Source: Desulfobacula sp.
Lineage (GTDB): Bacteria; Desulfobacterota; Desulfobacteria; Desulfobacterales; Desulfobacteraceae
Direction of reading: 5' to 3'
Assembly: GCF_021107415.1 (NCBI RefSeq)
Contig: NZ_JAIOSW010000136.1
Location: forward strand, 1-23,767
DNA length: 23,767 nucleotides
The notes below the pieces were generated by a model. That model was given only the letters and a program-made list of their open reading frames with translations, ran no database searches and was not told the origin of the DNA. A program made the position numbers and the translations under genes. Positions 5,766 to 23,767 of the stretch are shown one piece after another (the first letter of the stretch is position 1; each line of letters starts with the position of its first letter).

Positions 5766-5778
5766 TGTTGGGAGGCTT

Positions 5779-6333: not shown

Positions 6334-6341
6334 GAGATGCC

Positions 6342-7562: not shown

Positions 7563-7581
7563 ATATTGTCGAGGAAAATGA

Positions 7582-9189
7582 ATGGAAGAAAACGTATTAT
7601 CACCAAATGATTATATAAAGATATTAAAAAGAAGGATCTGGTCTCTGATTATCCCGTTCATGATGATTGTGATCATTGCCGGGGCTGTGGCCCTGTTGCT
7701 GCCTCCGGTTTATAAATCAACCTCCACCATCCTGATTGAACAGCGTGAAATTCCGGCTGAATATGTTACATCCAGCATGACGACGTTTGCAGAACAACGG
7801 ATGCAGAGCATTAACCAGCGGGTGTTGACATCATCCCGGCTCTTAGAGCTGATCAATAAGTTTGATCTTTATGCAGACCAGAAAAAGAAAAAAACAATCG
7901 ATGAAATTATTGCAAAGATGAGGGAGGATCTTGTTCTTGAGCCGGTTAATGTTGAAATCGCTGACAGGAAATCCGGCAGAACGGCAACTGCAACCATCGC
8001 TTTTACACTTTCCTATGAAGGAAAGGAGGCCCAAAAGGTTCAGCGGGTTGCCAATACCATTACATCCCTTTTTCTTAAAGAGGATTTAAAAGTAAGAAAA
8101 CACCAGGCATCCAGTACATTCGAGTTCCTGGAAGCGGAAAAAGAGAAGGTCCGGGGAAAAGTAGCTGAATATGAGAAAGCGATTGCCGAGTTTAAGAAGC
8201 AGAATGCCCAGTCCCTTCCTGAATTATTCCAGATGAACATGCAGGCCATGGACAATCTTCAGCGCAATATTGACGGGGCAAAGGAAAACCTTCGGGCTTT
8301 AAAGGAAAAAGAAAGCGAACTGGCAGAGCAGCTGACCAACACACCCGTGGATCTTGAGTCAACCATGCCCCAAAGAGAAATCAAGGAGGATGATGAACGG
8401 CGGCTTGAAGCCTTGAAGATGGAGTTGATAAATTTGAAAACCAAGTTTTCCGATTTGTATCCGGATGTAAAAAAACTTAAGCAGGAAATAACAGAACTGG
8501 CTGTAAAGGTCGAACAGTCTAAAAAGGAAAAAGAGGCGGAAGAAGCAAGTAAAAAAGACGAGGCCATTAAAAATCCTGCCTATGTAACCCTTTCTTCACG
8601 GCTTGCAGGAATCCGGTCTGATATTGGCTCTGTAAAAAATAATTTAAAGGACCTTAAGAAAGAAAAAGATATTTGCAAGGCAAAACTTACGGCAACACCA
8701 GGGGTTGAAGAAAAGTATAGCGCCCTTTTGATTGAACGAAATATTTTAAAAAGCAAATTTGCCGATCTGCAGGCTAAAATGATGGAGTCCCAGGTGGCTG
8801 AAGAGCTCGAGTCAAAGCAGAAAGGAGAGCGATTCACCCTTGTTGAGTCTGCGCGCCTGCCTGAAAAACCGTATAAACCCAACAGGCTTGCCATTATGCT
8901 TATCGGTATTGTTCTGGGTATTGGTGCCGGCGTGGGATTTGCTTCAATTGTTGAATTTTCAGATACCTCGTTCAGGGATGGGGAAGCCCTTGCCCGGGCA
9001 ACCGGATTTCCAGTTTTGACGGAAGTGCCCAACATTATTACCCGGGAAGATAGAATGAAAAGAATGATCAAGCGGCTGGTGATTTTTTCTGCCATTGTTG
9101 TGATAATTGTGATCAGCATCTTTTTGTTTGATACATATGTTATGGATCTTGATGTACTCTGGGCTAAGATCATGCGCAGAATCTCATAA
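7582..9189 (+). CDS. Wzz/GNVR-type polysaccharide chain-length determinant
   Basis: A 535-residue inner-membrane polysaccharide co-polymerase. The first transmembrane helix lies near residues 18-40. A Wzz domain follows (YKSTSTILIEQREIP), then a long coiled-coil region from about 170 to 400 rich in Glu, Lys and Ala. The GNVR-like end is ERFTLVESARLPEKPYKPN, and a second transmembrane helix starts directly after it. A third hydrophobic segment near 490-512 and a short tail follow a GFPVLTEVPNI stretch. The kinase part found in one-piece Wzc proteins is absent here and is supplied by the next gene. It sets polymer length together with that ATPase. The GAGGAAA ribosome site is good. Confidence 0.9.
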   Translation: MEENVLSPNDYIKILKRRIWSLIIPFMMIVIIAGAVALLLPPVYKSTSTILIEQREIPAEYVTSSMTTFAEQRMQSINQRVLTSSRLLELINKFDLYADQKKKKTIDEIIAKMREDLVLEPVNVEIADRKSGRTATATIAFTLSYEGKEAQKVQRVANTITSLFLKEDLKVRKHQASSTFEFLEAEKEKVRGKVAEYEKAIAEFKKQNAQSLPELFQMNMQAMDNLQRNIDGAKENLRALKEKESELAEQLTNTPVDLESTMPQREIKEDDERRLEALKMELINLKTKFSDLYPDVKKLKQEITELAVKVEQSKKEKEAEEASKKDEAIKNPAYVTLSSRLAGIRSDIGSVKNNLKDLKKEKDICKAKLTATPGVEEKYSALLIERNILKSKFADLQAKMMESQVAEELESKQKGERFTLVESARLPEKPYKPNRLAIMLIGIVLGIGAGVGFASIVEFSDTSFRDGEALARATGFPVLTEVPNIITREDRMKRMIKRLVIFSAIVVIIVISIFLFDTYVMDLDVLWAKIMRRIS

Positions 9190-9213
9190 AAAGCACAGGA
9201 GACTAAAAAACAA

Positions 9214-10008
9214 ATGAAATTAAGGAAAGCGCTTGATAAAGCCAGGGATACCAGGAACAGTGAATTTGAACAGACTGCGGCCCAGACGGTGACCGGGACT
9301 GCACCTGTAAAAGATAAAAATGTCTGGGCTCCACCTAAATATACGAATTCAATTCAATACAGGATGGACCCGGATGTTGTGGAAAAAAACCGTGGTGTCA
9401 GTATAAATCCTGATGCCAAAGAAATCGAGCAGTACAAGATTCTGAGGACGCGGATACACCAGCAGGCCAAGAACCGGAAGATGAATACCATCATGATTAC
9501 AAGCCCCAATAGAAATGAGGGGAAAACCGTCACTGCGATAAACATGGCATTTACCTTTGCCAGGGATCTGAAACAGACGGTTCTTTTGGTCGACTGTGAT
9601 TTTAAAGGTCAGGATATCCATAATTATCTGGGGATTGACAGCAAATTCAGTCTGATTGATTACTTTCTGGATGATACACCATTAAACGAACTGATTATAT
9701 GGCCGGGAATCGAAAAATTGACCCTGATTTCCGGTGATCGGACCGTTTATGATTCTTCAGAACTGCTATCGTCTGAAATGATGGAAAAACTGGTACTGGA
9801 AATGGGGACACGGTATGATGACCGATATGTTTTTTTTGATGGTGCACCTATATTGGAGCGTGCTGAGGCCATTTCCATGGCACCGATGATGGATGGGATT
9901 ATTATGGTGGTTGAAGCCGGTAGTACATCCAGGAAAGATGTTCTAAAAGCGGTCTCACTGCTGCCAAAAGATAAGTTCCTTGGGTTTGTCCTCAACAAAC
10001 AGGAATAG
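9214..10008 (+). CDS. CpsD/CapB-like (BY-kinase family) ATPase of exopolysaccharide synthesis
   Basis: A 264-residue cytoplasmic protein of the bacterial tyrosine kinase family that partners Wzz-like proteins. The Walker A region is SPNRNEGKTVTAINMA (about 98-113), Walker A' is VLLVDCDFKG (D127 and D129), and the Walker B-like segment is YVFFDGAPI. The EIEQYKILRTRI helix before the ATP site is the usual oligomerisation segment. Two departures from typical kinases are visible. The Gly normally preceding EGK is Asn, and the C-terminal tyrosine-rich cluster is missing: there is no Tyr in the last ~55 residues. A tyrosine-independent regulatory ATPase is therefore possible. A ribosome site, AGGAG, lies 11 bp upstream, and the next gene starts 3 bp after the stop. 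Confidence 0.82.
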   Translation: MKLRKALDKARDTRNSEFEQTAAQTVTGTAPVKDKNVWAPPKYTNSIQYRMDPDVVEKNRGVSINPDAKEIEQYKILRTRIHQQAKNRKMNTIMITSPNRNEGKTVTAINMAFTFARDLKQTVLLVDCDFKGQDIHNYLGIDSKFSLIDYFLDDTPLNELIIWPGIEKLTLISGDRTVYDSSELLSSEMMEKLVLEMGTRYDDRYVFFDGAPILERAEAISMAPMMDGIIMVVEAGSTSRKDVLKAVSLLPKDKFLGFVLNKQE

Positions 10009-10011
10009 TCC

Positions 10012-11127
10012 ATGTATAAAGAATTTTACGGGTTTAAGGAAAAACCATTTAACCTGGTCCCCAATCCGTCTTATCTTTTTTTAAGTAACAAGCACGCCAA
10101 TGCTTTGAGTTTTCTTGAGTATGGTCTGACGGAAAAGGTGGGCTTTGTCATGCTGACCGGAGAGATCGGTATTGGAAAGACAACCATTGTTCGCTATCTT
10201 TTGAACCAGATTGAATCAGATATGGATGTGGCTGTGATTTTTAACACCAATGTGCTTTCAGATGATCTGATTAATTTGATATTGAGTGAATTTGAAATTG
10301 AGTACGACGATGGCATTACCAAGGCTAAGGCTTTGGCATTGCTCTATGAGTTTCTAATAGAAAAATACTCAAAGGGCAGAAAAGTCCTCTTGATCATTGA
10401 TGAAGCTCAGAATTTGTCCGAAGATGTTCTGGAGGAAATCCGCATGCTGTCAAACCTCCAGACAGATGAGGAAATGCTTTTACAGATCATGATCGTAGGA
10501 CAGCCGGAACTCAGGGATAAAATAAGTGATCCCAAACTTGAGCAGTTTGCCCAGAGGATTTCCGTCAGTTATCATCTGTCTGCCATGACCCTTGAAGAAA
10601 CCGGGGAATATATCGCCTACAGGCTTGAGAAGGCTGAGGGAAAGCCAGAACTTTTTTCCCTGGATGCTGTAAAAAAAATATACGAGATGTCCACAGGCAT
10701 TCCCAGGACGATCAATCTTTTGTGTGATGCATCACTTGTGTATGGATATGCCGATGAAAAACAGGCAATAGATTTAGACACTGTGGATATGGTTGTCGAA
10801 GACAAGGGCGGTATGGGAGTCTTTACCAGAAACAGACTCAAGCAGAATTCAGTACAGGCCGGTTCATCCACAGCTGCACACAAAGCTTCACAGGACGATT
10901 TAATCAAGAAAATTACTAATGTTGAAAATCATTTTTCCCAGTTAAAGGAATTTTACCATAACTATATCAAGGAAATGGAATCAAGGGCGCAATTTTGCAG
11001 GGATGAAATGGTATCAGAGCTGAAAAGCTCTATGACCAGGGAAAAAACAAGAAATGAAGAATTGCTGCTCGAATATGGAAAACTTAATGAAAGGTATCGT
11101 CTTCTCCTTAGAAAATTCAGAAAATAA
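10012..11127 (+). CDS. XrtA-locus AAA ATPase (ExeA/GspA-like)
   Basis: A 371-residue AAA+ ATPase. It opens MYKEFYGFKEKPFNLVPNP, the conserved start of the ExeA/GspA and PEP-CTERM-locus ATPases. Walker A is GEIGIGKTT (about 50-58) and Walker B is VLLIIDEAQNL (about 125-135). Sensor-like stretches follow, including GQPELRDKI and the STGIPRTINLLCDASL segment. After about residue 275 the family core ends. A charged, helix-forming tail with coiled-coil character continues to the end (VENHFSQLKEFYHNYIKEMES onward). It is the last gene of the operon. Its role in polymer secretion is known only by association with such loci. Confidence 0.85.
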   Translation: MYKEFYGFKEKPFNLVPNPSYLFLSNKHANALSFLEYGLTEKVGFVMLTGEIGIGKTTIVRYLLNQIESDMDVAVIFNTNVLSDDLINLILSEFEIEYDDGITKAKALALLYEFLIEKYSKGRKVLLIIDEAQNLSEDVLEEIRMLSNLQTDEEMLLQIMIVGQPELRDKISDPKLEQFAQRISVSYHLSAMTLEETGEYIAYRLEKAEGKPELFSLDAVKKIYEMSTGIPRTINLLCDASLVYGYADEKQAIDLDTVDMVVEDKGGMGVFTRNRLKQNSVQAGSSTAAHKASQDDLIKKITNVENHFSQLKEFYHNYIKEMESRAQFCRDEMVSELKSSMTREKTRNEELLLEYGKLNERYRLLLRKFRK

Positions 11128-11259: not shown

Positions 11260-11685
11260 TTAACCTGCTTTATTCACAAAAGTAGTGGCATCAATAATCT
11301 GTATCCGCTGAAAATGTTTGATATTCCGCAGGTGTGGATCCCTTGAGACGATATAATCCGCGTTGCCCTCCAGGGCACAGGCAATGAACATGTCGTCTTC
11401 GGGATCCAGAGAGATACCGTCAATATGATATGTGTTTTTGGTAACCATGGCATTTCCTATGATCATGCCTACAAACTCATCAATATTTTGTTTTGAAGGA
11501 TTAAACCGCTGGACGATGTGGGGATAATGTAAAACCTCATACAATTCTCTCAGGATCGGTTTTGAGGTCACCATGGTAAATGCATTGTCTGCTATCAGAT
11601 CCCGCATTTTTCTGGCTATCCCTTGTTTTGCAAAAGCGACACTGACCACTACGCTGGTGTCAATAACCGCTTTAAGAATGGGCAT
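11260..11685 (-). CDS. PIN-domain toxin (putative ribonuclease)
   Basis: A 141-residue PIN-domain protein of the toxin-antitoxin PIN family. The acidic metal-binding residues expected for the nuclease are present: D9 in AVIDTSV, E46/E50 in ILRELYE, the DPEDDMF cluster (94-98), and D116 in VSRDPHL. Full length and intact active site suggest a working RNase toxin. Its start lies inside the upstream XRE gene (14-bp overlap), and a GGTAAGGA ribosome site sits within that gene, so translation is coupled. Downstream the pair shares the bidirectional terminator with the exopolysaccharide operon. Confidence 0.88.
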   Translation of the reverse strand: MPILKAVIDTSVVVSVAFAKQGIARKMRDLIADNAFTMVTSKPILRELYEVLHYPHIVQRFNPSKQNIDEFVGMIIGNAMVTKNTYHIDGISLDPEDDMFIACALEGNADYIVSRDPHLRNIKHFQRIQIIDATTFVNKAG

Positions 11686-12166
11686 ATTTTTTTGTCCTTA
11701 CCGCTTCCACTGCTTCATCAATAACATCGTCGATATTGTCCTGAGAATAGTCTTCTGCACCTTTTGCAAGCCTGTCGGTAATATTTCTAAATCTCTCTGA
11801 CCAGGATTCTTCTGCCTTTGGTCTTATAACCTTTTCGATCTGATGCTTCACAATGACGCCTTCAAGAACTTTTTTAACCACATACTTTTCATCCTCACTC
11901 ATTCCGGATATGGACTCAAACTGTTCCAAGAGTTCACGGTCAATAATCTTGTTTTGTGCCACGCCGGTGGCTTTATTAAAGACCATCTCATCTATGGAGA
12001 CACCGAGTACTGAGACCAGTTTTATGATGGCATCAAGTGATGGTGTGGATTTATCTGTTTCATAACGTCTGATTTGAGAAATGGCAACGCCACTTATTTT
12101 TACAAGTTCTTCCTGTGTTAATCCTTTTTCTTTTCTGACTTTTGCGAGATTTTTTCCAAAAGACAT
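11672..12166 (-). CDS. XRE-family HTH antitoxin/regulator of the PIN toxin
   Basis: A 164-residue protein with an N-terminal Cro/C1-type helix-turn-helix (about 4-60: GKNLAKVRKEKGLTQEELVK, then SQIRRYETDKSTPS). A charged C-terminal half ends in ESWSERFRNITDRLAKGAED, which probably binds the toxin. The frame is open up to 12271, but I place the start at 12166. The HTH begins there, AAGGGGG lies just upstream, and a strong -10 element lies between this ATG and the longer start. It overlaps the PIN gene by 14 bp. An XRE partner is less common for PIN toxins than AbrB or ribbon-helix-helix partners. Self-repression through the palindromes upstream is likely. Confidence 0.85.
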   Translation of the reverse strand: MSFGKNLAKVRKEKGLTQEELVKISGVAISQIRRYETDKSTPSLDAIIKLVSVLGVSIDEMVFNKATGVAQNKIIDRELLEQFESISGMSEDEKYVVKKVLEGVIVKHQIEKVIRPKAEESWSERFRNITDRLAKGAEDYSQDNIDDVIDEAVEAVRTKKYAHS

Positions 12167-12211
12167 ATCGCCCCCTTCTGGTATGCATAATGTTTTGTAT
12201 AAATTGATTTT

Positions 12212-12217
12212 ATTATA
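12212..12217 (-). promoter_or_regulatory. Extended -10 promoter of the XRE-PIN pair
   Basis: On the minus strand TGGTATAAT gives a consensus -10 element with the TG extension. The -35 region is poor, as is allowed for extended -10 promoters. Transcription would start near 12205, leaving a leader of about 40 nt before the ATG at 12166. Confidence 0.6.
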
Positions 12218-12233
12218 CCACATGTTTTTAAAT

Positions 12234-12267
12234 ATCTTTTCAAAAGATGGCTTGATATTATAATATC
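12234..12267. promoter_or_regulatory. Two palindromes, candidate operators of the XRE antitoxin
   Basis: ATCTTTT-C-AAAAGAT (12234-12248) is a perfect 7+1+7 palindrome over the -35 region. GATATTATAATATC (12254-12267) is a perfect 14-bp palindrome just upstream. Their place relative to the -10 element fits repression by the dimeric XRE protein. Confidence 0.5.
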
Positions 12268-12387
12268 TCATGTGCTATTAAAAATATCTAATAAGACATC
12301 AATCTTTTTTTTATGCTTTGGCAATATTTTTTTGGCGGCCTTTTAGCGGGGTATACTGAAAATGATTTTACTACCGGCAGATGTTTT

Positions 12388-14166
12388 TCACGGGACTTCT
12401 GTTATGTCTATATTTTCGTCGTCTTTCTCCTTTTCAGGGGTACTGCCAATATAAGTCTGGGCAATATTTGCAGAATATAATAGAATCTGTTTCATAAGAT
12501 CCATTAGTTCCATATGGACTCTGCTTGTTCCAACAGACTCTTGTTTTTCAGAGATAATTCTTTCAAGATGCGCAGCTCTGTATTTGGCTTCCAGATCAAG
12601 ATATTTTTTTTCTTTTTTTACAATATGATATGCAATCTTCAGGTCAGTTGAAGCAAACGCTTTGCGTATTAAATTTATCTGTTTTAAAACTTTGCTCTGA
12701 TAAATTAAAAGTTCTTCTTTGCCTTCATCGCAAAAATCATAATGGAGGCCTTTTTTTTTGGTTATTAAGGGGATCATATTCCTATGAATTATATCTCCAA
12801 TACTTTCCATGTCTTTTACAATGGAAACCATGCCAAATACTTCCCTTACCTGTTCTTTAGTTATATTACGCCGTGCTATTCTGGCAAGGTAGGCAGTGAT
12901 TTTTTCTTCTAAAAAATCTATTTTTTTTTCACGCAGATCAATGCCCTCAAGAAGCGAAAGTTCAGGAAATATTTGATCTCTTGTTGGAACTTCTTTAATA
13001 AGCAGTCGTGCGTCTTCATCTTGGCCTGCTTGTTTTGCGATATATTTTTTATCAGAAATAAAAGGGATTATTATAGCATTTAGCATCCTGCCCAGAAGAT
13101 TTGCCATGCGTGATATTTCTAAACGAACCAGATCAATTGCAAGCACCGGTGTTTCAAGCATAGCATCATCAATGTGGAATGTGACAATTTCAAGATTTTT
13201 TTTCTTTTCTTTTTTCGGGAAAATATAATAAATGATTTTAGAAAAAAATGAAATAAAGGGAAGGAAAATCAAACCGATACTTACATTAAATATAGTATGA
13301 GCATTTGCTATTTGTCTTGCTGTCCCTGAATCAAATTGATTTGCTAAAATTCTGATTATATCAGCAAATTGCGGAATCCAGAAAACAAACAGACAAACAC
13401 CTGCAATTTTGAACATTACATGTGCAATAGCAACACGTTTGGCTTCCCTTGAAGCACCGATCACTGCAAGTCCTGCTGTAACACAGGTGCCGATATTTGC
13501 ACCAAAAATAACAGGGATGCCTGCTTCAAGGGAAATAAGCCCCTGTTGTGCCAGCACTATAAGGACACCGGTTGTCGCACTGCTGGACTGGACAATCGCA
13601 GTAAACCCTGCTCCTATTATAATGCCCATAAAAGGGTTTTCCATGTCTTTCATTAAGTCAATGAATGGAGCATATGTTCTCAAGGGCTCCATTACATCGC
13701 TCATGAGCTTCATTCCAAAGAATAAAATTCCAAATCCCAGAATGATATCTCCAATATCTTTTGGCTTTTTGGTTTTGGCGAGCATCTTAAGAAGAAAACC
13801 AATGGCTACCATAAGAAGGGCATAATCCGTAAGTTTAAATGCAACCATCTGGGCTGTAATGGTGGTTCCAATGTCTGCCCCTAATATTATACCCATGCAC
13901 TGAACTAAATTTAAAAGGCCTGCCTGGACAAAGCTCACAAGCATCACAGTCGTAGCGCTGCTGGATTGGATAACAACGGTTACAAAAGTTCCCACAATAA
14001 GAGCGACGACACGATTTTTTGTAAGAGAAGCAAGAATTGAACGCATTTGATTCCCAGCTGTGCCTTTCATGCCCTCGCTCATTTTCTCCATACCATAAAG
14101 GAAAAAAGCAAGTCCGCCTGCAATTCCAATAAATATGTTTGCCCATGAAAAGTCTGCCTGCATCAA
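12388..14166 (-). CDS. Na+/phosphate cotransporter-family protein with PhoU-like tail
   Basis: A 592-residue protein of the NptA/PNaS family (SLC34-like). The membrane part (about 1-330) contains the two inverted repeats, each with the signature QSSSATT (residues 67-73 and about 192-198). These sit in the segments IQSSSATTVMLVSFVQAGLL and IVQSSSATTGVLIVLAQQGLI. The C-terminal part (about 340-575) is hydrophilic, helical and PhoU-like, as in many bacterial members. The predicted activity is Na+-driven phosphate movement across the inner membrane. Its ATG overlaps the stop of pntB by 4 bp (ATGA), so it is translated with the transhydrogenase, which is an unusual partner. No terminator is evident after the gene. 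Confidence 0.88.
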   Translation of the reverse strand: MMQADFSWANIFIGIAGGLAFFLYGMEKMSEGMKGTAGNQMRSILASLTKNRVVALIVGTFVTVVIQSSSATTVMLVSFVQAGLLNLVQCMGIILGADIGTTITAQMVAFKLTDYALLMVAIGFLLKMLAKTKKPKDIGDIILGFGILFFGMKLMSDVMEPLRTYAPFIDLMKDMENPFMGIIIGAGFTAIVQSSSATTGVLIVLAQQGLISLEAGIPVIFGANIGTCVTAGLAVIGASREAKRVAIAHVMFKIAGVCLFVFWIPQFADIIRILANQFDSGTARQIANAHTIFNVSIGLIFLPFISFFSKIIYYIFPKKEKKKNLEIVTFHIDDAMLETPVLAIDLVRLEISRMANLLGRMLNAIIIPFISDKKYIAKQAGQDEDARLLIKEVPTRDQIFPELSLLEGIDLREKKIDFLEEKITAYLARIARRNITKEQVREVFGMVSIVKDMESIGDIIHRNMIPLITKKKGLHYDFCDEGKEELLIYQSKVLKQINLIRKAFASTDLKIAYHIVKKEKKYLDLEAKYRAAHLERIISEKQESVGTSRVHMELMDLMKQILLYSANIAQTYIGSTPEKEKDDENIDITEVP

Positions 14167-16139
14167 TTTTCTGCCTTTAATGCATGAATCAATTCATTTG
14201 CCGTTAACGCTGCATCACCCAACATCATTATTGTTTTCGGGTTCTCATATAAGGTGTTCTCAACTCCGGAATAGCCCGGGTTTGCATCAAAATTGCAGAT
14301 GATTATTTTTTTTGCATCATGTGTCATCAGTATCGGCATTCCGGAAATAGGAGTGCCTTCAGTCTCCATTGCTGCAGGGTTTACCACATCACAGGCACCA
14401 AAAACAAGAACAACATCTGTTTGTGAAAATTCAGGATTGATTTCATCCATCTCGCAAAGTTGGTCATAATCAACTTCTGCTTCAGCAAGAAGCACATTCA
14501 TGTGCCCGGGCATTCTTCCGGCCACCGGATGAATGGCAAATTTCACTTGTGCACCCATTGATTCAAGGATTAATGACAGCTCTACCACTTTAAACTGCGC
14601 CTGTGCCAGAGCCATCCCATATCCCGGGATAATAATAATTTTTTTGGCTGATGACAATGCAGTTATGGCTGAATCCAAAGGGGACTTTTCAGAGGATTCT
14701 TCAATAGCAGGGGGTGTCTCTGAAAGAGCTTCATTCAATTGGCGAATCGTTTCCTTGGCATCTCCGAGAAGCAAAAGGGTATTATTGTTTTCATACAAAG
14801 GATTTTCAACACCTGAGTATCCGGGTTTGTCATCCAGATTGCAGCAGACAACATTTTTTGATTCATGGGTAAGTAAAATAGGCATACCGGATATGGGTGA
14901 TCCGTCAGTTTCTATGGCTGCGGGATTCACCACATCACACGCCCCGATAACCAGGGTAAAATCAGTGTCCTTGAATTCAGGATTTACGGCATCCATTTCG
15001 TAAAGATTATCATAGTCAACCCCGGCTTCAGCAAGAAGCACATTCATATGACCCGGCATTCTTCCGGCCACCGGGTGAATGGCAAATTTTACATCCTTGC
15101 CCATGGAAAGCATTTTATTTGAAAAATCAATCACTTCAAACTGTGCCTGGGCCACGGCCATGCCATAGCCTGGGACAATAATGATCTTATTTGCTTTCCG
15201 GGCAAGTTCAACCGCTTTTTCAAAGTTATTTTTTTCAATGGATTCATGCTTTACTTCCTTTTCAACCGGCTCTGTAACTTGGGTTTGCTCCTTTTCAACC
15301 GAAGGTTTGTTCAGGGATTCTTCAACAGGAACAAAAACCCTGAAAAGACTGCGATTCATTGCCTTGCACATGACGTGAGTCAGTATTGATCCTGAAGCCG
15401 CCACAGTAGCGCCGCAGGAAATCAACAGCTTGTTTTCAATAATCATGCCGCAAAAGGCCGCAGCCACTCCCGCAGTGGCATTTAAAAATGAAATTAAAAC
15501 CGGCATATCAGCTCCGCCAATGCGGATGGAAAAAATAATTCCAAATAAAATTGACAGGAAAATGATCAGAATATAAAGGAATATCCGGCTGCCCATTGGC
15601 GCATACACTGATGCAATGATCAGTACGATAATGCCGATAAGGTTTATCATGACAAGCCAGGTGTGCTTTGGAAGCATGAGCGGGGTCTGGCTAAGCTTGT
15701 TGGACAGTTTCCCGCCCGCGATCATGGATCCGCTGAAAGTCAATGATCCGATAGCAAGGCCTAAGAGACCGGAAATCTCATTCACCATTCCAAGGTGTTG
15801 AGATCCCCGCATCAGCTCGGCAAGGGAGAGAAAAAAAGCGGCAACCCCTCCGGCACCATGCTGAAAGGCAACCATGGCTGGAATCTGGATCATGGTAATT
15901 TTCCTGGCCACCCATATTCCTACAGCAGAACCAATTACAAGAGATAACACCACAATATAGGGATACAGGGTACCGCTTCGATAAAGAACAAGGCCAGCTG
16001 CACAGGTTAAAGCAAAAGCCGCGGTAAGATTACCGAACTTTGCCCTGTGGGGCCAGTGAAACAGCCAGATCCCTAATATAAGGATACCGATGACACAAAA
16101 ATCCAGGGATAGATTCAGGGCAGAATATGTTTCAGTCAT
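14163..16139 (-). CDS. pntB: NAD(P) transhydrogenase beta subunit with duplicated domain III
   Basis: The N-terminal ~265 residues are membrane domain II. Visible landmarks are MVAFQHGAGGVAA (H94, matching the conserved proton-channel His), GSMIAGGKLSNKLS, GGADMPVLISFLNATAG (N220) and VMCKAMNRS. A charged linker (about 272-310) leads to domain III, the nucleotide-binding part, which is present twice: residues 318-461 and 500-643. Each copy has PGYGMA, KFAIHPVAGRMPGHMNVLLA, GACDVVNPAA and PGYSGVEN. Normal PntB has about 460 residues; this has 658. In both copies the Lys-Arg pair that binds the NADP(H) 2'-phosphate is replaced (N434/L435 and N616/F617). The enzyme should couple hydride transfer between dinucleotides to proton movement, but cofactor choice here is open. 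It overlaps pntAb by 4 bp. Confidence 0.92.
   Translation of the reverse strand: MTETYSALNLSLDFCVIGILILGIWLFHWPHRAKFGNLTAAFALTCAAGLVLYRSGTLYPYIVVLSLVIGSAVGIWVARKITMIQIPAMVAFQHGAGGVAAFFLSLAELMRGSQHLGMVNEISGLLGLAIGSLTFSGSMIAGGKLSNKLSQTPLMLPKHTWLVMINLIGIIVLIIASVYAPMGSRIFLYILIIFLSILFGIIFSIRIGGADMPVLISFLNATAGVAAAFCGMIIENKLLISCGATVAASGSILTHVMCKAMNRSLFRVFVPVEESLNKPSVEKEQTQVTEPVEKEVKHESIEKNNFEKAVELARKANKIIIVPGYGMAVAQAQFEVIDFSNKMLSMGKDVKFAIHPVAGRMPGHMNVLLAEAGVDYDNLYEMDAVNPEFKDTDFTLVIGACDVVNPAAIETDGSPISGMPILLTHESKNVVCCNLDDKPGYSGVENPLYENNNTLLLLGDAKETIRQLNEALSETPPAIEESSEKSPLDSAITALSSAKKIIIIPGYGMALAQAQFKVVELSLILESMGAQVKFAIHPVAGRMPGHMNVLLAEAEVDYDQLCEMDEINPEFSQTDVVLVFGACDVVNPAAMETEGTPISGMPILMTHDAKKIIICNFDANPGYSGVENTLYENPKTIMMLGDAALTANELIHALKAEN
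14211..15188 (-). repeat. Tandem duplication of the pntB domain III coding region
   Basis: Two in-frame copies lie at 14757-15188 (first in the protein) and 14211-14642, offset by 546 bp. A gap-free hand alignment gives 103 identical residues out of 144. Stretches of DNA are also identical, for example the block coding for ASAVLLVN in reverse orientation near 14480 and 15025. The level of identity suggests a recent duplication or ongoing gene conversion. Confidence 0.9.
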
Positions 16140-16467: not shown

Positions 16468-17622
16468 TTAACCCATGGCCTTGAGAGTACCTTCATGATA
16501 AAGTTTACCCTTGTGCGTAACAAGGGAATTTTTGATGATTTCATCATTCATGTCAAATTCATCAGCCCCGTTTTTAAACAGGTTCTCAACAAAATAATAA
16601 AGATTATTGGCATAGAGCCATGAAGAATGAACCGGCAGGGAACCGGGTATATTTTTAATCCCGCATATGTAAACGCCTTGATGAGTTAATTCTTTTCCAG
16701 GATCTGTCATTTCACAATTTCCGCCCTGATCAATGGATACATCAATGATAACAGATCCGGGTTTCATTGTTTCAACCATTTCTTTCGTGATCAGATGCTG
16801 GGCAACTTCCCCGGGCACAAGGGCACTGAGAACTATGATATCAGATTCTGCAACCAAAGGGGCCAGTGCCTGTCTTTCCTTTTCAAGCCATTCCGGCGGA
16901 AGTGCTTTGGCATACCCGCCTTCTCCAAGGACCAGCTCTGACGGAGCATCAAACCCCACCACCTTGACGCCTAAGCTCTCGGCCTCTTTTTTTGCATCCG
17001 GCCGGATGTCAACCGCCTTGACAATACCTCCCAGTCTTTTTCCTGTTGCAATTGCCTGAAGCCCGACAACACCGGTGCCTATCACTAAAATATTGGCCGG
17101 TTTTATCATCCCAATGGACGTACCGACCATGGGAATGAATTTTGGAAAATTTGCGGCTGCGATAATAATAGATTTATAGCCGGTTATGGCACTCATGGAT
17201 GTCAACGGATCCATGCGCTGGGCTCTTGAAATTCTGGGAATACCGTCCATTGTGAATGTGGTGATATTTTTGGCTTGCATTTTTTTCACATCCCCATGAT
17301 TTGAAGGGGCAGCCGGATGCAAAAAAGTAATAAGAATCTGGTTTTCCTTTAGCATGTCAATCTCATGCTTATTGAACTGATCATTAAACAATGGTTCCTT
17401 GACTTTCAAAATAACATCTGATTTGTCAAAAACCTCTGCTGCATCTCCTGCAATCTGCGCCCCGGCCTTCCGGTATTCTTCATCGTCCGTAAAGGCACCG
17501 GCACTCGCCTTTGTTTCAACAATCACATCAAATCCCAGTTTTTTAAATTTTTCAATGGTTTCAGGAAGTGCTGCAACCCTGTTTTCCTTGTACATTATTT
17601 CTTTGGGTATTCCAATTAACAT
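16468..17622 (-). CDS. pntAa: NAD(P) transhydrogenase subunit alpha part 1 (NAD-binding domain I)
   Basis: A 384-residue soluble protein, the NAD(H)-binding domain I, related to alanine dehydrogenase. Visible are MLIGIPKEIMYKENRVAALP at the N-terminus, SRAQRMDPLTSMSAITGYK, the Rossmann segment ILVIGTGVVGLQAIATGKRLG, VKAVDIRPDAKKE, and the late motif NIPGSLPVHSSWLYANNLYYF. The start at 17622 is chosen because IPKE is the usual N-terminus and AAGGAG lies 7 bp upstream. An in-frame ATG at 17664 would add 14 residues of no family likeness. It is the first gene of the minus-strand operon, divergent from the sensor kinase gene. Confidence 0.93.
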   Translation of the reverse strand: MLIGIPKEIMYKENRVAALPETIEKFKKLGFDVIVETKASAGAFTDDEEYRKAGAQIAGDAAEVFDKSDVILKVKEPLFNDQFNKHEIDMLKENQILITFLHPAAPSNHGDVKKMQAKNITTFTMDGIPRISRAQRMDPLTSMSAITGYKSIIIAAANFPKFIPMVGTSIGMIKPANILVIGTGVVGLQAIATGKRLGGIVKAVDIRPDAKKEAESLGVKVVGFDAPSELVLGEGGYAKALPPEWLEKERQALAPLVAESDIIVLSALVPGEVAQHLITKEMVETMKPGSVIIDVSIDQGGNCEMTDPGKELTHQGVYICGIKNIPGSLPVHSSWLYANNLYYFVENLFKNGADEFDMNDEIIKNSLVTHKGKLYHEGTLKAMG

Positions 17623-17777
17623 GATTTGTCTCCTTTTATTATTCATAAATCCTGAGTCTTTCAAAATTCATCATTCATATCTTCTCATATGAATGAAAAT
17701 CATAAAAGCGCAATAAATCTTTTTTTAGGGAAACACAAGATATTTTTATATCATCTGCAATAAAAGTTTTACCTTGC

Positions 17778-17840
17778 TTTTTACAACCTGTAAAAAATAC
17801 CGACATAATTATATTTAATTGTAAAAAATACTGACACAAT
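17778..17840. promoter_or_regulatory. TGTAAAAA half-site array, candidate operator
   Basis: TTTTTACA (17778-17785) and TGTAAAAA (17789-17796) form a perfect inverted repeat with a 3-bp spacer. A third half-site lies at 17820-17827. The longer unit TGTAAAAAATACYGACAY occurs twice, 31 bp apart, about three helical turns, so bound proteins would face the same side. It lies about 155-215 bp before pntAa. The binding protein is unknown. Confidence 0.45.
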
Positions 17841-17868
17841 GCCATTTTTCTAAGGTTAACTATTGATT

Positions 17869-17995
17869 CCATTATACTGATATTATTCTATATTTTTAGA
17901 TAGTTAATACTTTTTGCTGACAAATTTATATTTGGCATAAAGATTGCTCTTTGAAATTAGGGGAATCAGGGAAGTCATGGAAATCAGTATAATGG
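17869..17995. repeat. 13-bp inverted repeat pair flanking the sigma-54-type promoter
   Basis: CCATTATACTGAT at 17869-17881 and its exact reverse complement ATCAGTATAATGG at 17983-17995 stand on either side of the -24/-12 element, 101 bp apart. They could be binding sites for an activator or a looping protein. No other copy was noticed in the window. Confidence 0.5.
17933..17948 (+). promoter_or_regulatory. Sigma-54 (-24/-12) promoter for the REC-Cache kinase gene
   Basis: TGGCATAAAGATTGCT has the invariant GG (17934-17935) and GC (17946-17947) with exactly 10 bp between them, and TGGCA and TTGCT agree with consensus. The start of transcription would be near 17959, about 80 bp before the chosen ATG. 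A sigma-54 activator would be required; none is encoded in the window. Confidence 0.75.
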
Positions 17996-18039
17996 GCTGA
18001 ATCTGAATTTAGCAGGTGATGCAGAAAGGCAAAAGACAA

Positions 18040-20085
18040 ATGACAAAAATAAATATAATGCTGGTGGATGATGAGGAAAGATTTCTTTCTACCACTAAAA
18101 AACTTTTAGAAAGAAAGGGCTATACAGTACAAACCGCTTCAAGTGGCATACAAGCACTTGAAAAATTAAAAAATCACCATATTCAAGTTGTTATTTTAGA
18201 TGTCAAAATGCCGGGTATGGATGGCATTGCAACCTTAAAGAAAATCAAACGTGATTTTCCTTTGATTGAAGTGATTATGCTCACCGGACATGGTACGGTG
18301 GAATCTGCTGTTGAAGGCGTCAAGTTAGGAGCGGCAAATTATCTGGTAAAGCCGGCTGACATTGATGATATTTCCCAAAAGATTCAGGAAGCCTTTGCGA
18401 AAAGACAAACCATCGGCGTACAAACCGATAAAAGAAAACAATATTTTAAAAAACTTAGAATGCAACTGGGCGTTGGACTCCTAGCGGCTTTTATGCTGCC
18501 CTACGCAGCATTTTTTGCCTATTTTCAAATCCAGTTCAGCTCAACATTGAAAGATACCGGACGGCTTAATCTGGAAGCACTTTCAAACAGCAAAAAAAAT
18601 ACGATTGACCTTTTTTTACAGGAACGGGTTGTTAATATTTTCAGTCTCTTTCACAGTGTTGATTTCAGCCTTAATCCTTCCCAGAATAAAATGCATCATT
18701 ACCTTCAGGACTTAAGACAGGTTAATGATGCATTCATTGATGTCGGATTTCTCAATCCAAAGGGAATTCAGACAGGATATGCCGGCCCCTTTCCCTATCT
18801 TCAGGGCAAAAATTACAGCAATGAAATCTGGTTTAAAACCCTGCTTGATCAGGAACGGCACTACTATATCAGTGATATTTACCTGGGGTTCAGGAAAAAA
18901 CCACACTTTACCATTGCCGTCAGGCAGATAATTGACGGGAATCCTTATATTATGCGGTCTACACTGGACCCTGATAAGTTTTATATGTTTTTACGTTCCA
19001 TCAGTCGTGGAAAAGATGTCGAATCCGCCATTATTAATAAAGAGGGGCTGTACCAAATTGTTGATCCGGACAGGGGGGAACTGCTTGGCAAAAGCGAGTA
19101 TATTCCTTCGCAAACCATTGAATCCGGAGTAAAGGAGATCAATAATAACGGTGATCCCGTCCTCATTGGGTATGCATGGTTGAAAGAAACGCCCTGGGCG
19201 CTGATTGTCCGGCAGCCTTTGAATATTGCTCACGCAGGGATGTATCAGAGCAGACGGGTTATGACGATTATCCTTGCATTGGTCTTTTTTTGCATTGCAG
19301 CAGGAATATGGTTTGCAAATGGCAGACTGCTAAGGAATGTCCAGGTTGCTGCTGAAAAAAGTGAGGAACTGAAACATCAACTCTTTCATGCATCAAAACT
19401 TGCTTCTGTTGGAGAACTGGCCACCGGGGTCGCCCATGAAATAAACAATCCGCTGGCCATCATCGTTGCAACCAGCGGGGTTGTCCGCGATATGCTTGAT
19501 CCTGAATTTAACGTAAATCCAAGTCCTGAAGAAATCATTAAAGAGATTGATATCATAGATTCAGCGGCTTTCAGGGCAAGAACCATCACCCGGCAGCTAT
19601 TGGCTTTTGGACGTAAAAATGAATCAAAGCTTACGCCCTGTAATGTAAATGAGGTTCTGGATGATGTAATGAGCGGACTCAAAGAACGCGAGTTTAAAGT
19701 AGCAGATATTGAAGTTCTGCGTGAGTATGATCCCGGTTTGCCGGAAATCATGCTGGATCATGACCAGATCCGCCAGGTATTTTTGAATCTTATCAACAAT
19801 GCAGGTGATGCTATTTCAGGGCCCGGTAAAATTACGATTACCACCAATAGAAATGACCGGGATATACAAATCACAATTAAAGATACTGGAAAAGGAATGT
19901 CTGCTGAACAGCTCAGTGAGATATTCAATCCTTTTTTCACTACAAAAGAAGTGGGGAAAGGAACCGGGCTGGGTCTCAGTGTTTCACTTAATATTATAGA
20001 ATCACTGGGTGGCGCAATCGATGTCCAGTCCTTAGAGGGTGCTGGAAGTTTATTTATGATATCACTGCCGATTCGCAGGGCTTAA
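18040..20085 (+). CDS. Membrane sensor histidine kinase with N-terminal receiver domain and Cache sensor
   Basis: A 681-residue kinase. Residues 1-120 are a receiver domain with the acidic pair DD (10-11), phospho-acceptor D54 in LDVKMPGMDG, Thr in LTGHG and Lys in VKPAD. A transmembrane helix (about 143-166) leads to a periplasmic double-Cache region with YISDIYLGFRKKPHFTIAVRQ. A second helix lies at about 407-427. No HAMP domain is evident. HisKA has the phospho-acceptor H466 in GVAHEINNPLA. The HATPase domain shows LNLINNAGDA, DTGKGM and GKGTGLGLS. The placing of the receiver before the sensor is uncommon. I chose the ATG at 18040, with AAAGG upstream; GTG 18016 or ATG 18019 would add eight or seven residues. 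It probably phosphorylates the receivers encoded downstream. The ligand is unknown, but Cache domains often bind organic acids. Confidence 0.9.
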   Translation: MTKINIMLVDDEERFLSTTKKLLERKGYTVQTASSGIQALEKLKNHHIQVVILDVKMPGMDGIATLKKIKRDFPLIEVIMLTGHGTVESAVEGVKLGAANYLVKPADIDDISQKIQEAFAKRQTIGVQTDKRKQYFKKLRMQLGVGLLAAFMLPYAAFFAYFQIQFSSTLKDTGRLNLEALSNSKKNTIDLFLQERVVNIFSLFHSVDFSLNPSQNKMHHYLQDLRQVNDAFIDVGFLNPKGIQTGYAGPFPYLQGKNYSNEIWFKTLLDQERHYYISDIYLGFRKKPHFTIAVRQIIDGNPYIMRSTLDPDKFYMFLRSISRGKDVESAIINKEGLYQIVDPDRGELLGKSEYIPSQTIESGVKEINNNGDPVLIGYAWLKETPWALIVRQPLNIAHAGMYQSRRVMTIILALVFFCIAAGIWFANGRLLRNVQVAAEKSEELKHQLFHASKLASVGELATGVAHEINNPLAIIVATSGVVRDMLDPEFNVNPSPEEIIKEIDIIDSAAFRARTITRQLLAFGRKNESKLTPCNVNEVLDDVMSGLKEREFKVADIEVLREYDPGLPEIMLDHDQIRQVFLNLINNAGDAISGPGKITITTNRNDRDIQITIKDTGKGMSAEQLSEIFNPFFTTKEVGKGTGLGLSVSLNIIESLGGAIDVQSLEGAGSLFMISLPIRRA

Positions 20086-20136
20086 TGAAATAATATAATT
20101 TTTTTTACATTTTAATCTTAACCAGAAGGAAGGACT

Positions 20137-22212
20137 ATGGAAGACCAAAAAATCACAAATGGGAATAACAAAAAATTGAAAGTATTGTTGATTGATGACG
20201 AAGACCGGTTCCGGGAAAGTCTGGCAAAGCAGCTGAGCCTTAGAGGATTCGATGTTCTTGATGCAAGCAATGGTGAAGATGCCATAAAAATAGTCCGTCA
20301 TGATAATCCTGAAGTGGTAATCCTTGACCAGAAGATGCCCGGGATGGACGGGATTCAGACCTTAAAGGAAATAAAAAAACTGCGGCCCGAAGTCCAGGTG
20401 ATCATGCATACCGGCCATGGCAGTATTGAATCAGCCAGGGTTACGGGAAAATTTGATGTATTTTCTTACCTGGAAAAGCCTTGTGCCCTGGATGACTTAA
20501 TTAAAGAAATCAAGGCGGCAGCTGAGGAACGGGTTTATGCAATGGCCAGAAATGAAATCCCCGACGTACAGGGAACAAGTCTTAAAAACTGGCTCATCGG
20601 TGTACAAAATGCCCGTCCCGGAATAATTCTTCTTGGGGCCATTCTTTTTCTAACCATGGTGTTTATACCAGCACCACAGCAGTTGACAGATTTTTTGTCT
20701 GCAAAGAAAACCGGTAATCTCAGTGAAAGCATTGCCGGATACGCAGAATATCAAAAAATGGAAAAAGGCCAGACAATTGTAGAGTACTATGGTAAAAAAG
20801 CAAAATTGTATACCAAAACAAAAGCCGCTGACGGGAAAGTCACAAAAACAGCTCCCGGTGTGGAGAAAATAGCTTTTAAGGCAAAGGTGATGATTGGTGT
20901 ATTGATCGTTGCCGCCCTTTTCTGGGCAACCGGCGCTGTTCCCATAGGCATTACCGCTCTTCTTGTGGGCGTGTTAATGTATTTTTTCGGGGTTTTTCCC
21001 CCCAGCATGGTGGCCAAAGCATATGCAAAGGATTCGGTAATTTTTATCTTTGGTGTGCTTGCATTTGCCGCTGCCATCAGCAAAACAGGTCTGGATCGTC
21101 GGATTGGAATCCTTTTGCTGGGAACCAGCACATCCCTTCGCAGGTTTGCGCTTATCTTTGCACCCCTTCTGGCCGTAACAGCCTCTTTTCTTTCCGAGCA
21201 TGCTCTGGTGGCGTTTATTGCTCCGATTTTAATGCTGGTATACATGGGAACAATACAGGCAGCCGGTATAAAAAAAGACAAGGGACTGGTGGTCATGCTG
21301 CTGTTAATGCTGACATTCTGCGCCAATATAGGAGGGCCCGGATCACCTGCAGCAGGCGGTCGTAATGCAGTAATGCTTGGTATTTTTTCAGATTACGGCA
21401 TTAGCATCTCGTTTGGCCAGTGGGTAAAAATGGGGCTCCCCTTTGTGCCGGTAATGGCGCTTACCATTGCTACATATTTTCTTGTTGTTTTTAGAAAGAA
21501 AATCAAGGTTAAAGATGTCAATGTTGCAGCCCGGGTTAAACGGGAAGGGGAAAAAATCGGCAGGATGACTTTGGACGAATATAAAGCTGCAGCAGTTCTG
21601 ATACTTGTTATTGTGTTGTGGGTGGGTTTTTCCGATAAAGTCGGCATGGGAGGGCCGGTTATTTTATGTCTGGTTCTCTTAAATATTTTAGGCATTCTGC
21701 GCTGGAAAGATATCAACGGTATCAGCTGGGATGTTGTGGCACTTTATGCTGCGGCAAGTGCCATGGGTGTGGGTCTTGCCTCCACCGGTGCTGCGCTCTG
21801 GCTTGCAAACACTTTTATTTCCATACTTCCTGATTTCCTAAGAAGTGGAACCGGGCTTTGTATGTCCACAAGCCTTATTACCGGTATTCTGACCAATTTT
21901 ATGAGTGACGGAGCCACTGTGGCTGCAGTTGGTCCCATAACCGTGCCAATGGCTACCCTTTCCGGGACATCGCCGCTCATGGTCGGGCTTGCTACAGCAT
22001 TTGCTTCGTCTTTTGCTCATATGCTCATCATCGGCACACCTAACAATGCGATTGTTTACAGTCTGGCAAAGGATCCTGAAACCGGAGAGCAGCTGGTTAC
22101 AATGAAGGATTTTTTCGTTCATGGCTTTGCTGTTTTTCTTCTGAGTATGGCAGTGTTGTGGATATGGGTATTTTTCGGCTATTGGAAATGGTTGGGAATA
22201 GGCGGTGTTTAA
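20137..22212 (+). CDS. Receiver domain fused to an SLC13/DASS-family permease
   Basis: A 691-residue fusion. Residues 14-130 are a CheY-like receiver with all key residues: DD at 20-21, D64 in ILDQKMPGMDG, T92 in HTGHG and K114 in LEKP. After a helical linker, residues 162-691 form a polytopic SLC13/DASS (ion transporter superfamily) permease. The two hairpin regions are ANIGGPGSPAAGGRN (396-410) and ASSFAHMLIIGTPNNAIVY (623-641). The SNT sodium-site motifs of well-studied members appear replaced by SEH (353-355) and SDG (590-592). A hydrophilic loop of about 65 residues (181-247) follows the first helix. DASS proteins carry dicarboxylates or sulfate; the substrate here is unknown. The gene lies 51 bp after the kinase gene, with an AAGGAAGG ribosome site. 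Phosphorylation of D64 probably gates or otherwise controls transport. Confidence 0.9.
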   Translation: MEDQKITNGNNKKLKVLLIDDEDRFRESLAKQLSLRGFDVLDASNGEDAIKIVRHDNPEVVILDQKMPGMDGIQTLKEIKKLRPEVQVIMHTGHGSIESARVTGKFDVFSYLEKPCALDDLIKEIKAAAEERVYAMARNEIPDVQGTSLKNWLIGVQNARPGIILLGAILFLTMVFIPAPQQLTDFLSAKKTGNLSESIAGYAEYQKMEKGQTIVEYYGKKAKLYTKTKAADGKVTKTAPGVEKIAFKAKVMIGVLIVAALFWATGAVPIGITALLVGVLMYFFGVFPPSMVAKAYAKDSVIFIFGVLAFAAAISKTGLDRRIGILLLGTSTSLRRFALIFAPLLAVTASFLSEHALVAFIAPILMLVYMGTIQAAGIKKDKGLVVMLLLMLTFCANIGGPGSPAAGGRNAVMLGIFSDYGISISFGQWVKMGLPFVPVMALTIATYFLVVFRKKIKVKDVNVAARVKREGEKIGRMTLDEYKAAAVLILVIVLWVGFSDKVGMGGPVILCLVLLNILGILRWKDINGISWDVVALYAAASAMGVGLASTGAALWLANTFISILPDFLRSGTGLCMSTSLITGILTNFMSDGATVAAVGPITVPMATLSGTSPLMVGLATAFASSFAHMLIIGTPNNAIVYSLAKDPETGEQLVTMKDFFVHGFAVFLLSMAVLWIWVFFGYWKWLGIGGV

Positions 22213-22227
22213 AAGAGTCGGCTTGCT

Positions 22228-22305
22228 GTGTGGGAGCATATTTGGGTTGTGATAATAAGTGCCATGGAAACTTTCCCGGCCGAAAATGCTCCCACACGGT
22301 TTTTT
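22228..22305 (+). terminator. Hairpin with T-run after the permease gene
   Basis: GTGTGGGAGCAT (22228-22239) pairs perfectly with ATGCTCCCACAC (22286-22297). The 46-nt loop contains a small GGAAA-C-TTTCC hairpin (22266-22276), and CGG then TTTTTT follows the stem. It could terminate or attenuate transcription between the permease and the next receiver gene, or be a dispersed palindromic element that also ends transcription. Confidence 0.55.
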
Positions 22306-22337
22306 AAGATTGATGGTCACGTAAAAGGAGTGATGAC

Positions 22338-22826
22338 ATGGAAAAAGAAAAAATAAATTTATTAATAGTGGATGATGAAGAACAATTTCTGGCATCAATC
22401 ACTAAAAGCCTGGAATTAAGGGATTTTAATGTGATTGCGGTGAACAGAGGTGAAAAGGCCATTGAGGCTGCAAAAAACAATCCCATAGATATTGCCCTTG
22501 TGGATTTGAAAATGCCGGGAATATCCGGCGAAGAAACTTTAAAATTGCTTAAGCAGGAACATAAATGGATGGAAGTCGTCATACTGACCGGCCACGGTGC
22601 TGTCGATTCTGCGGTTGAGTGCACAAAAAGCGGTGCATATTCTTATCTGCAAAAACCCTGCGAGCTTAATTCACTTCTTTCTGCCCTGCAGGATGCATAT
22701 AAAATGAAAGTGATGAACAAAAAGAAAATTGAAGAAAAAAAGATGAATGAATTGTTAAATATCTCCTTTTCCAGCAGCCCAAGGGAAATTCTTCGCAAGT
22801 TAAGGGAAATGGACCAAGGGGACTGA
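22338..22826 (+). CDS. Stand-alone response regulator (receiver domain with charged tail)
   Basis: A 162-residue protein. Residues 5-125 are a receiver domain with DD (12-13), D56 in LVDLKMPGISG, Thr in ILTGHG and Lys in LQKPCE. The remaining ~37 residues are highly charged and helical (MNKKKIEEKKMNELLNISFS onward) and contain no DNA-binding or enzyme domain. It resembles the receiver of the permease fusion (both end in KPC plus an acidic/polar stretch). It may act as a phosphate sink or shuttle, or as a protein-protein regulator. AAGGAG lies 6 bp before the ATG. Confidence 0.87.
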   Translation: MEKEKINLLIVDDEEQFLASITKSLELRDFNVIAVNRGEKAIEAAKNNPIDIALVDLKMPGISGEETLKLLKQEHKWMEVVILTGHGAVDSAVECTKSGAYSYLQKPCELNSLLSALQDAYKMKVMNKKKIEEKKMNELLNISFSSSPREILRKLREMDQGD

Positions 22827-22851
22827 TACCGGTCCGTCACTTATCGACTAG

Positions 22852-22897
22852 CATGAAGAACATGAAGAAAACTAATAATTTCTTCGTGTTTTTCATG
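22852..22897. repeat. Stem-loop of the CATGAAGAACA / CTTCGTGTT type
   Basis: The 19-nt arms 22852-22870 and 22879-22897 pair with two G-T type mismatches around an 8-nt loop. The following bases, ATCTTTATGGTTAAAA, continue the pattern of a palindromic intergenic repeat that I recall as common in Desulfobacterota genomes. It starts 25 bp after the receiver gene. It lacks a clean T-run, so it is more likely a dispersed repeat than a classical terminator. Confidence 0.5.
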
Positions 22898-23116
22898 ATC
22901 TTTATGGTTAAAATATTTTCAATCTATTTAAAGCAGCCAAAGCATGGCCCCACAATAAATTCCTCAAAATTCAAAATTCTCATCTAAATTTATTTACAAT
23001 TTGGAAAAAAACCTGACACTTTTTTGAAAATATTTTTTCTTGCCCTCAAGCTTTAAAAATAAAAATATCTTTTATATTTCAAATACTTATATTTTTTGTT
23101 GTATTTAGAATCAACC

Positions 23117-23132
23117 CGGCATCATAGTTGCT
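23117..23132 (+). promoter_or_regulatory. Sigma-54 (-24/-12) promoter for the second Cache sensor gene
   Basis: CGGCATCATAGTTGCT has the invariant GG (23118-23119) and GC (23130-23131) with exactly 10 bp between them and an exact TTGCT. It differs from the first such site by C in place of the leading T. The transcript would start near 23143. A TTGACA at 23141-23146 with a poor -10 element is a weaker sigma-70-type alternative. Confidence 0.65.
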
Positions 23133-23180
23133 CTTAGTCTTTGACAGAGTATCGGATGAATATAAAAATAAGGGTACGTC

Positions 23181-23767
23181 ATGGATAAAAACGGTCACGA
23201 ACGTAAAGAAAAAGAAAATCGGCTCAAACGATCCATTTTAACTAATATGATCATCGTTCCATTTATTCCTTTTTTACTGGCCATAGGTGTCAGTTTTTAC
23301 TTTTTCACCACGGCACTTGAAGATAAGACCGTCAACAGTTTAAACCGAATAGTGGGAGATCATAGAGATATGATCGAGTCCTTTTTGATAGAACGTAAAT
23401 CAGACCTTGAATTCATCACAAACACTTACGATTTTGAAGAAATTAACGCTGCCAATGCCATTAATACCATATTTGAAAATTTAAAAAACCGGTCAGGTGC
23501 GTTTATTGATCTGGGTCTGTTTGATTCCCGGGGCATCCACGTAAGATATTCCGGCAAGTATCAATTAAAAGGAAAAAAATATAAGGATGAGGTATGGTTT
23601 GAAAAAGTAATGGAAACCGGAACCTATATCAGTGATATTTTTTTAGGATATAGAAATATTCCTCATTTTATTATTGCAGTTCGCCAGGGCAGCGGGAATA
23701 AAACCTGGGTACTCAGGGCAACCATTGATACACAGTATTTTTGTACGCTGGTATCAAAGGTGAGAAT
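23181..23767 (+). CDS. Cache-domain membrane sensor protein, probable histidine kinase (cut by window edge)
   Basis: The frame starts at ATG 23181 (AAGGG 6 bp upstream) and stays open for 195 codons to the right edge. A basic N-terminus precedes a transmembrane helix (about 19-43, MTNMIIVPFIPFLLAIGVSF-like). A periplasmic Cache region follows with GAFIDLGLFDSRGI, GKKYKDEVWF and YISDIFLGYRNIPHFIIAVRQ. These blocks match the Cache of the first kinase nearly motif for motif, so the two are paralogous sensors. Unlike that kinase it has no N-terminal receiver. The kinase domain would lie outside the window; its presence is inferred from the paralogue. Confidence 0.8.
   Translation, partial: MDKNGHERKEKENRLKRSILTNMIIVPFIPFLLAIGVSFYFFTTALEDKTVNSLNRIVGDHRDMIESFLIERKSDLEFITNTYDFEEINAANAINTIFENLKNRSGAFIDLGLFDSRGIHVRYSGKYQLKGKKYKDEVWFEKVMETGTYISDIFLGYRNIPHFIIAVRQGSGNKTWVLRATIDTQYFCTLVSKVR

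Follow-up and report, generated by a model that had tools for sequence, protein, structure and literature searches.

We identified, in a 23,767-nucleotide stretch of DNA from Desulfobacula sp. (hereafter the window), a forward-strand gene at positions 20137..22212 that encodes a receiver domain and a permease of the DASS/SLC13 fold as one protein of 691 aa, REC-DASS. The ORF starts with an ATG that follows a likely ribosome-binding site (AGAAGGAAGG), and has no internal stop; the fusion was further characterized by Pfam matches, homologues, genomic loci and an AlphaFold2 model. We lean modestly towards the explanation that REC-DASS is an importer of sulfate or another sulfur oxyanion that is switched post-translationally via phosphorylation of its own receiver, with products of neighbouring genes acting as partners. 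The presence of the fusion across phyla, in sulfur-metabolising bacteria, suggests that a kinase switches uptake at the transporter itself.

The first-pass annotation had described an apparently phosphorylatable receiver with D64, T92 and K114, in one frame with an SLC13-type permease, and both descriptions were borne out. PF00072 matched aa 16-125 (20182..20511) with 92.3 bits against a cut-off of 30.2, and PF00939 (Na_sulph_symp) matched aa 240-687 (20854..22197) of the same ORF with 136.5 bits against a cut-off of 27. When counted on the translation, the phospho-acceptor D64 falls at 20326-20328, T92 at 20410-20412 and K114 at 20476-20478; with the acidic residues D20/D21/E22, all of the residues that mark membership of the receiver family (acidic pair, Asp, Thr/Ser and Lys) are present. 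Conservation and fold matches to the receivers 1zy2, 3crn and 4d6y likewise identify this domain, and alignments and fold matches identify the transport region. Pfam returned no DNA-binding output domain in REC-DASS, the output part being the permease. Between the two domains lie the rest of a long helix (residues 118-138) and a linker, together aa 126-157 (20512..20607; alignment A2 and AlphaFold2), with G155 in the linker and the R160/P161 that follow invariant in alignment A2. According to the secondary structure of the AlphaFold2 model, the first transmembrane helix (approximately aa 158-178) is followed by a loop of about 60 residues (aa 179-240; helix and loop, 20608..20856), which is probably periplasmic if sidedness follows that of the DASS fold. 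The model, for which alignment A2 of 60 natural sequences was the input (the window, 57 of the first 80 loci described below, L088 and L089), had a mean pLDDT of 85.6 and a pTM of 0.78, and was weaker at residues ~91-110 and 131-160. In VIA-align 2, model residues ~146-691 matched NaDC3, NaCT, NaS1 and VcINDY, whilst residues 13-145 matched receivers, amongst them 3crn and phosphorylated NtrC1.

The same architecture is found well beyond the window, as a true fusion with homologues should be. Both domains were present in the best 120 of 1938 homologues passing the threshold, at identities of 75-94%. A scan of genome contigs with two search patterns, one of them SEHALVAF, yielded 95 loci, of which 80 were kept for analysis; in 78 of these, receiver and permease share an ORF, and the other two start at contig ends. 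A sequencing or assembly error that joined two genes by frameshift is therefore ruled out by the uninterrupted ORF, the independent fused homologues and loci and the AlphaFold2 model, and we regard it as vanishingly improbable. Amongst the rows reaching the respective columns, the window being one row, D64 is kept in 78/79, T92 in 78/79 and K114 in 79/79. The sole exception, L072 (9989-12058), carries D64A, D21P and T92S, and represents a natural non-phosphorylatable form; a CBS gene lies just upstream of this fusion, and a profile search covering 10 kb upstream and only ~240 bases downstream detected no kinase and no separate receiver. The fusion is present in several phyla, beyond the Desulfobacula lineage, and occurs in chromosome-titled records of Phycisphaerales (L054), Gemmatimonadota (L062) and Zixiibacteriota (L071). 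As the taxon labels were taken from the titles of the records, and some bins (e.g. L018) seem to be mis-sorted, we give no exact count of phyla. A search of a plasmid collection at 1e-50 returned no match to the fusion.

The gene neighbourhood places potential signalling partners beside the fusion, as had been proposed. Directly upstream, at 18016..20085 of the forward strand, lies a probable partner kinase of 689 aa with the order REC-dCache-HisKA-HATPase (ORF list and Pfam), its dCache match of 39.4 being under the Pfam cut-off of 45. At 62 of the 80 loci, a same-strand kinase of more than 500 aa ends no more than 1.5 kb upstream of the fusion, with H-box and ATP-binding motifs kept. Within 6 kb of the fusion we found a kinase at 71 loci, receiver-only genes at 72, a separate CBS protein (~188 aa) at 47 and a second DASS gene at 18; these counts cover all 80 loci, only 32 of which extend 6 kb on both sides, and are thus lower bounds wherever a gene was absent. 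In those 32 loci a kinase and a receiver-only gene were each found in 30. Downstream of REC-DASS, at 22338..22826 (+), the window encodes a receiver-only protein of 162 aa (Pfam, alignment and tree), the window copy of which gave no DNA-binding domain match in Pfam. It is a close relative of the fused receivers with a conserved C-terminal tail, and its phosphorylation residues are kept in 50/50 sequences, one from the window and 49 from the loci. A second dCache sensor, probably also a kinase, starts at 23181 and runs past the window end (23181..23765, +; ORF list and Pfam); at the matching place in another Desulfobacula locus (L002) there is a kinase of 584 aa. The proposal that the fusion lies between a kinase and a second, related sensor thus holds in so far as dCache genes flank it on both sides, but the receiver-only gene intervenes before the second. 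The usual order, read from 71 of the 80 loci (nine were without a selected main gene), is kinase - (CBS) - REC-DASS - receiver-only - (kinase - receiver - second DASS - REC-CBS). The REC-CBS proteins encoded in the same clusters (L002, 18017-18946, and other loci) are a second non-DNA-binding receiver output, and at two loci (L056, 14680-16137; L063, 9039-10346) a receiver is joined to a cytidylate-kinase-like domain near the fusion. Regulators combining a receiver with a sigma-54 domain were found within 6 kb at 9/80 loci, sigma-54 proteins without a receiver match at five more, and LuxR-type regulators near the fusion in L044 (two) and L061; DNA-binding regulators of other types were sought only among receiver proteins. 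A transcriptional arm therefore exists at some loci, where such regulators are nearby.

The gap that separates REC-DASS from the receiver-only gene contains a strong hairpin followed by T6 (22225-22304; MFE -37.8, z -5.8). A reading as a conserved attenuator was rejected: the 11-base hairpin arm had no exact match in 90 loci, and the hairpin is absent from the corresponding gaps of L001 and L002. As the arm is unmatched, the element is probably a lineage-specific palindrome or terminator, and an Rfam scan of 17600-23767 at gathering scores returned no RNA element. Elsewhere, the window contains an exopolysaccharide export cluster of the XrtA/PEP-CTERM type (3351-11127), in which PrsT scored over its cut-off, whilst the export protein, chain-length determinant, tyrosine autokinase and ATPase were best matches that all fell under theirs. 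On the reverse strand follow an RstR-like HTH regulator gene overlapping that of a PIN-domain protein, resembling a toxin-antitoxin pair (11260-12271), a Na/Pi symporter with a PhoU domain (12388-14166), and a transhydrogenase beta subunit (658 aa; 14163-16139) in which PNTB occurs as two stretches and the C-terminal part resembles a repeat of the preceding domain.

With regard to the origin of the fusion, a midpoint-rooted tree of 281 receivers placed the 81 fused receivers in one clade (support 0.997), the sister group of which has 73 members, namely 72 receiver-only proteins and a longer one (parent support 0.874); 66 of these 73 start right beside the point where a fusion gene ends. As the fused receivers are monophyletic and their sisters are mainly the neighbouring receiver-only proteins, the tree fits a single fusion following a receiver duplication. 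Unfused relatives were sought in 148 genomes drawn from the phylum of G001, where eight DASS matches at 1e-80 comprised one fused protein (in G001) and seven relatives that were 40-47% identical. The frames of six of the seven are too short to include a receiver; the seventh (L087, in G356) is truncated by a contig start, which leaves six that count as unfused. The closest relatives, L081-L083, have the motifs SEH, GGPGSPAAGGRN and SDG as in the fusion, and the other four of the seven have SAH and GGVGSPAAGGRN. Separate receiver genes and a kinase lie near four of the six unfused relatives (L081, L082, L083 and L085), with a CBS protein also near L081, L083 and L085, whilst a CBS protein alone was found in the stretches examined around L084 and L086. 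What is one protein here is thus two neighbouring proteins in unfused relatives, a Rosetta-stone argument which suggests that receiver and permease work together. Nevertheless, as these relatives share the motifs of the fused form, a fused receiver would not be required for transport, which counts against the phospho-switch that we favour.

The assignment of the permease to SLC13/DASS was upheld in part. It is supported by the PF00939 match and the SLC13 fold; however, against the curated NCBIfam DASS subfamily TIGR00785 the protein scored 174.9 bits, under the cut-off of 198.6, and it is without the SNT motifs of VcINDY. These are the substrate motifs of VcINDY-type DASS carriers. In the alignment with VcINDY, the first SNT corresponds to SEH (aa 353-355, 21193-21201) and the second to SDG (aa 590-592, 21904-21912); a further aligned motif, GGPGSPAAGGRN, occupies aa 399-410 (21331-21366), and the GSPPN loop of VcINDY is replaced by AGGRN, which places an arginine in the loop. 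SEH was present in 81/81 rows, a count that is partly ascertained by the use of SEHALVAF as a search pattern, and SDG in 79/79 rows reaching it. Because the SNT motifs are replaced and the loop aligned with GSPPN carries an arginine, both the substrate and the coupling ion may differ from those of VcINDY. Homologues carry the automatic names dicarboxylate transporter 2/3/5; the site motifs do not match those of VcINDY, and we advise against relying on the name 'dicarboxylate transporter'. Nor did comparison of folds single out a substrate: the top Foldseek row for the model was human NaS1, with NaCT, NaDC3 and VcINDY about equally good.

The substrate is probably sulfate, as judged from genome content and not from the binding site. 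In 43 bearer genomes selected from the 80 loci, dsrA exceeded the curated cut-off in 36 (in 14 control genomes it never did, although 8 had matches at E 0.001), aprA was present in 37, and one or the other in 39; G009 and G012 had only partial or dsrB-like matches. In the phylum of G016 (118 genomes), dsrA was detected at 1e-30 in 29/30 bearers vs 18/88 other genomes (Fisher 3e-14), and in 24/25 bearers when five genomes already known from the loci were set aside (Fisher 3e-12), although the relatedness of the genomes makes these Fisher values too strong. Two of the 29 dsrA-positive bearers had partial or dsrB-like matches, and with over-cut-off dsrA only the contrast was 27/30 vs 16/88; 27 of the 30 bearers have receiver-length frames, those of G070, G076 and G130 being too short. 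The phylum of G031 (200 genomes) gave dsrA in 3/3 bearers vs 2/197 others. In the phylum of G001, dsrA occurs in 74/148 genomes and the fused form in G001 only; thus, dissimilatory sulfur metabolism does not depend on the fusion. The receiver-permease family could nonetheless serve as a genomic hint of such metabolism. Since the fusion co-occurs with dsrA and aprA, a sulfur oxyanion is favoured over a dicarboxylate. The same switch might instead act on a different substrate, such as a di- or tricarboxylate, sulfite, thiosulfate or another anion, a reading with which the automatic names, the unusual binding motifs, the equal matches to NaCT, NaDC3 and NaS1, and two bearers (G022 and G035) with neither dsrA nor aprA matches all agree; in view of the dsrA co-occurrence in two phylum samples, and of dsrA and aprA in the bearers, we consider it quite unlikely. 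Regarding the direction of sulfate transport, the detection of DsrD in only 13/43 bearers counts against import and raised an oxidative, sulfate-exporting role. DsrE/TusD was over the cut-off in 0/43 bearers, with weak matches in five and the E. coli control matched, and import is therefore preferred, though not decisively.

The mechanism that these observations would support begins with the neighbouring dCache histidine kinase, which may sense an outside signal, perhaps sulfate, and would phosphorylate D64 of the fused receiver. Once phosphorylated, the receiver would act on the first transmembrane helix by way of the long helix (residues 118-138) and the conserved linker, and would thereby change how the transport domain is gated or makes its elevator movement, switching transport either on or off. 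The downstream receiver-only protein may compete for, drain or relay phosphate from the same kinase, and in lineages having a CBS protein the latter could add an energy-state (adenylate) input. We infer the substrate, phosphotransfer, direction of control, coupling path and the roles of the receiver-only and CBS proteins from architecture and conservation. That kinase and receiver-only neighbours are conserved, with few DNA-binding regulators nearby, supports such a phospho-switch, and the first-pass annotation, which had proposed one, is plausibly right. If the kinase gates the permease, uptake could be matched to supply faster than via new protein synthesis, and secondary transporters would join the outputs on which response regulators act directly. 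We hold only tentatively, and with some doubt, the wider reading that a single ancient fusion created a phosphorylation-gated sulfur-oxyanion permease, itself a core module of dissimilatory sulfur metabolism across phyla, in which a largely non-transcriptional circuit of kinase, receiver-only protein, CBS protein and receiver-permease sets sulfate entry directly.

The conserved kinase and receiver-only relative would also accompany a transceptor, in which the permease is the sensor and substrate flux or occupancy alters the gain or loss of phosphate by the receiver, to be reported to the kinase and the receiver-only protein; transporter-kinase fusions such as CbrA are known. However, the kinase has a dCache sensor of its own, the fused part is a receiver and not a kinase, and few nearby genes could pass such a report to DNA, so that we find this arrangement unlikely. 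The receiver might also be a mere assembly or docking module that provides a dimer contact or clusters the permease with the kinase, without gating transport. Receivers often dimerise, the DASS fold is itself a dimer, and unfused relatives manage without a fused domain; a passive dock would, on the other hand, not need the phosphorylation residues that are almost invariably kept, which makes this role very unlikely.

Sulfate reduction begins with the entry of sulfate, a step that strongly influences the rate of the process (PMC5840216). The same study describes DASS Cii as a putative sulfate transporter group of sulfate reducers that includes TOL2_19410 and HRM2_38300, and reports TOL2_19410 from the membrane fraction as a putative sulfate transporter, which favours a sulfate importer. 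The Desulfobacula toluolica homologue P0008, 89% identical to REC-DASS and of 691 aa, is probably TOL2_19410. In that account the group belongs to the DASS family, with lengths of up to 691 aa, equal to that of REC-DASS, and proline replaces S260 in TOL2_19410 and HRM2_38300; the terms 'response regulator', 'receiver' and 'two-component' occur zero times in the main text of PMC5840216. As it is contradictory on the expression of HRM2_38300 (one passage has it at high sulfate and two at low), we gave this source less weight. A more recent study, PMC11887813 (2025), describes a DASS sulfate gene cluster in Desulfosarcina variabilis and relatives that is widespread in sulfate reducers and in which, as in the loci analysed here, DASS carriers are accompanied by CBS proteins and numerous two-component genes. 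Its model speaks against direct gating, in that kinase sensing controls transporter formation via WalR-type response regulators; CBS proteins form a second level, with putative protein-protein contacts in a figure, whilst in its text the word 'receiver' occurs zero times and a permease-borne receiver is unmentioned. The fusion itself is already noticed in a UniRef name, the Desulfobacula toluolica protein being listed as 'Response regulator modulated sodium/sulf...', and a search of literature mostly outside subscription journals found no paper on a receiver-SLC13 fusion.

Unlike REC-DASS, the matched chains of VcINDY and of human NaCT, NaDC3 and NaS1 (SLC13) are without a receiver. Fusions of transporters to kinases include CbrA (SLC5-kinase) and Amt-kinase proteins, which resemble REC-DASS in that a permease is covalently joined to a two-component part. 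In these, however, permease and kinase are joined for signal input, whereas in REC-DASS a receiver takes the place of the kinase, with the permease as a candidate output. Thus, the domains and the gene cluster were already known, and what appears to be added here is the permease as a candidate output of a response regulator.
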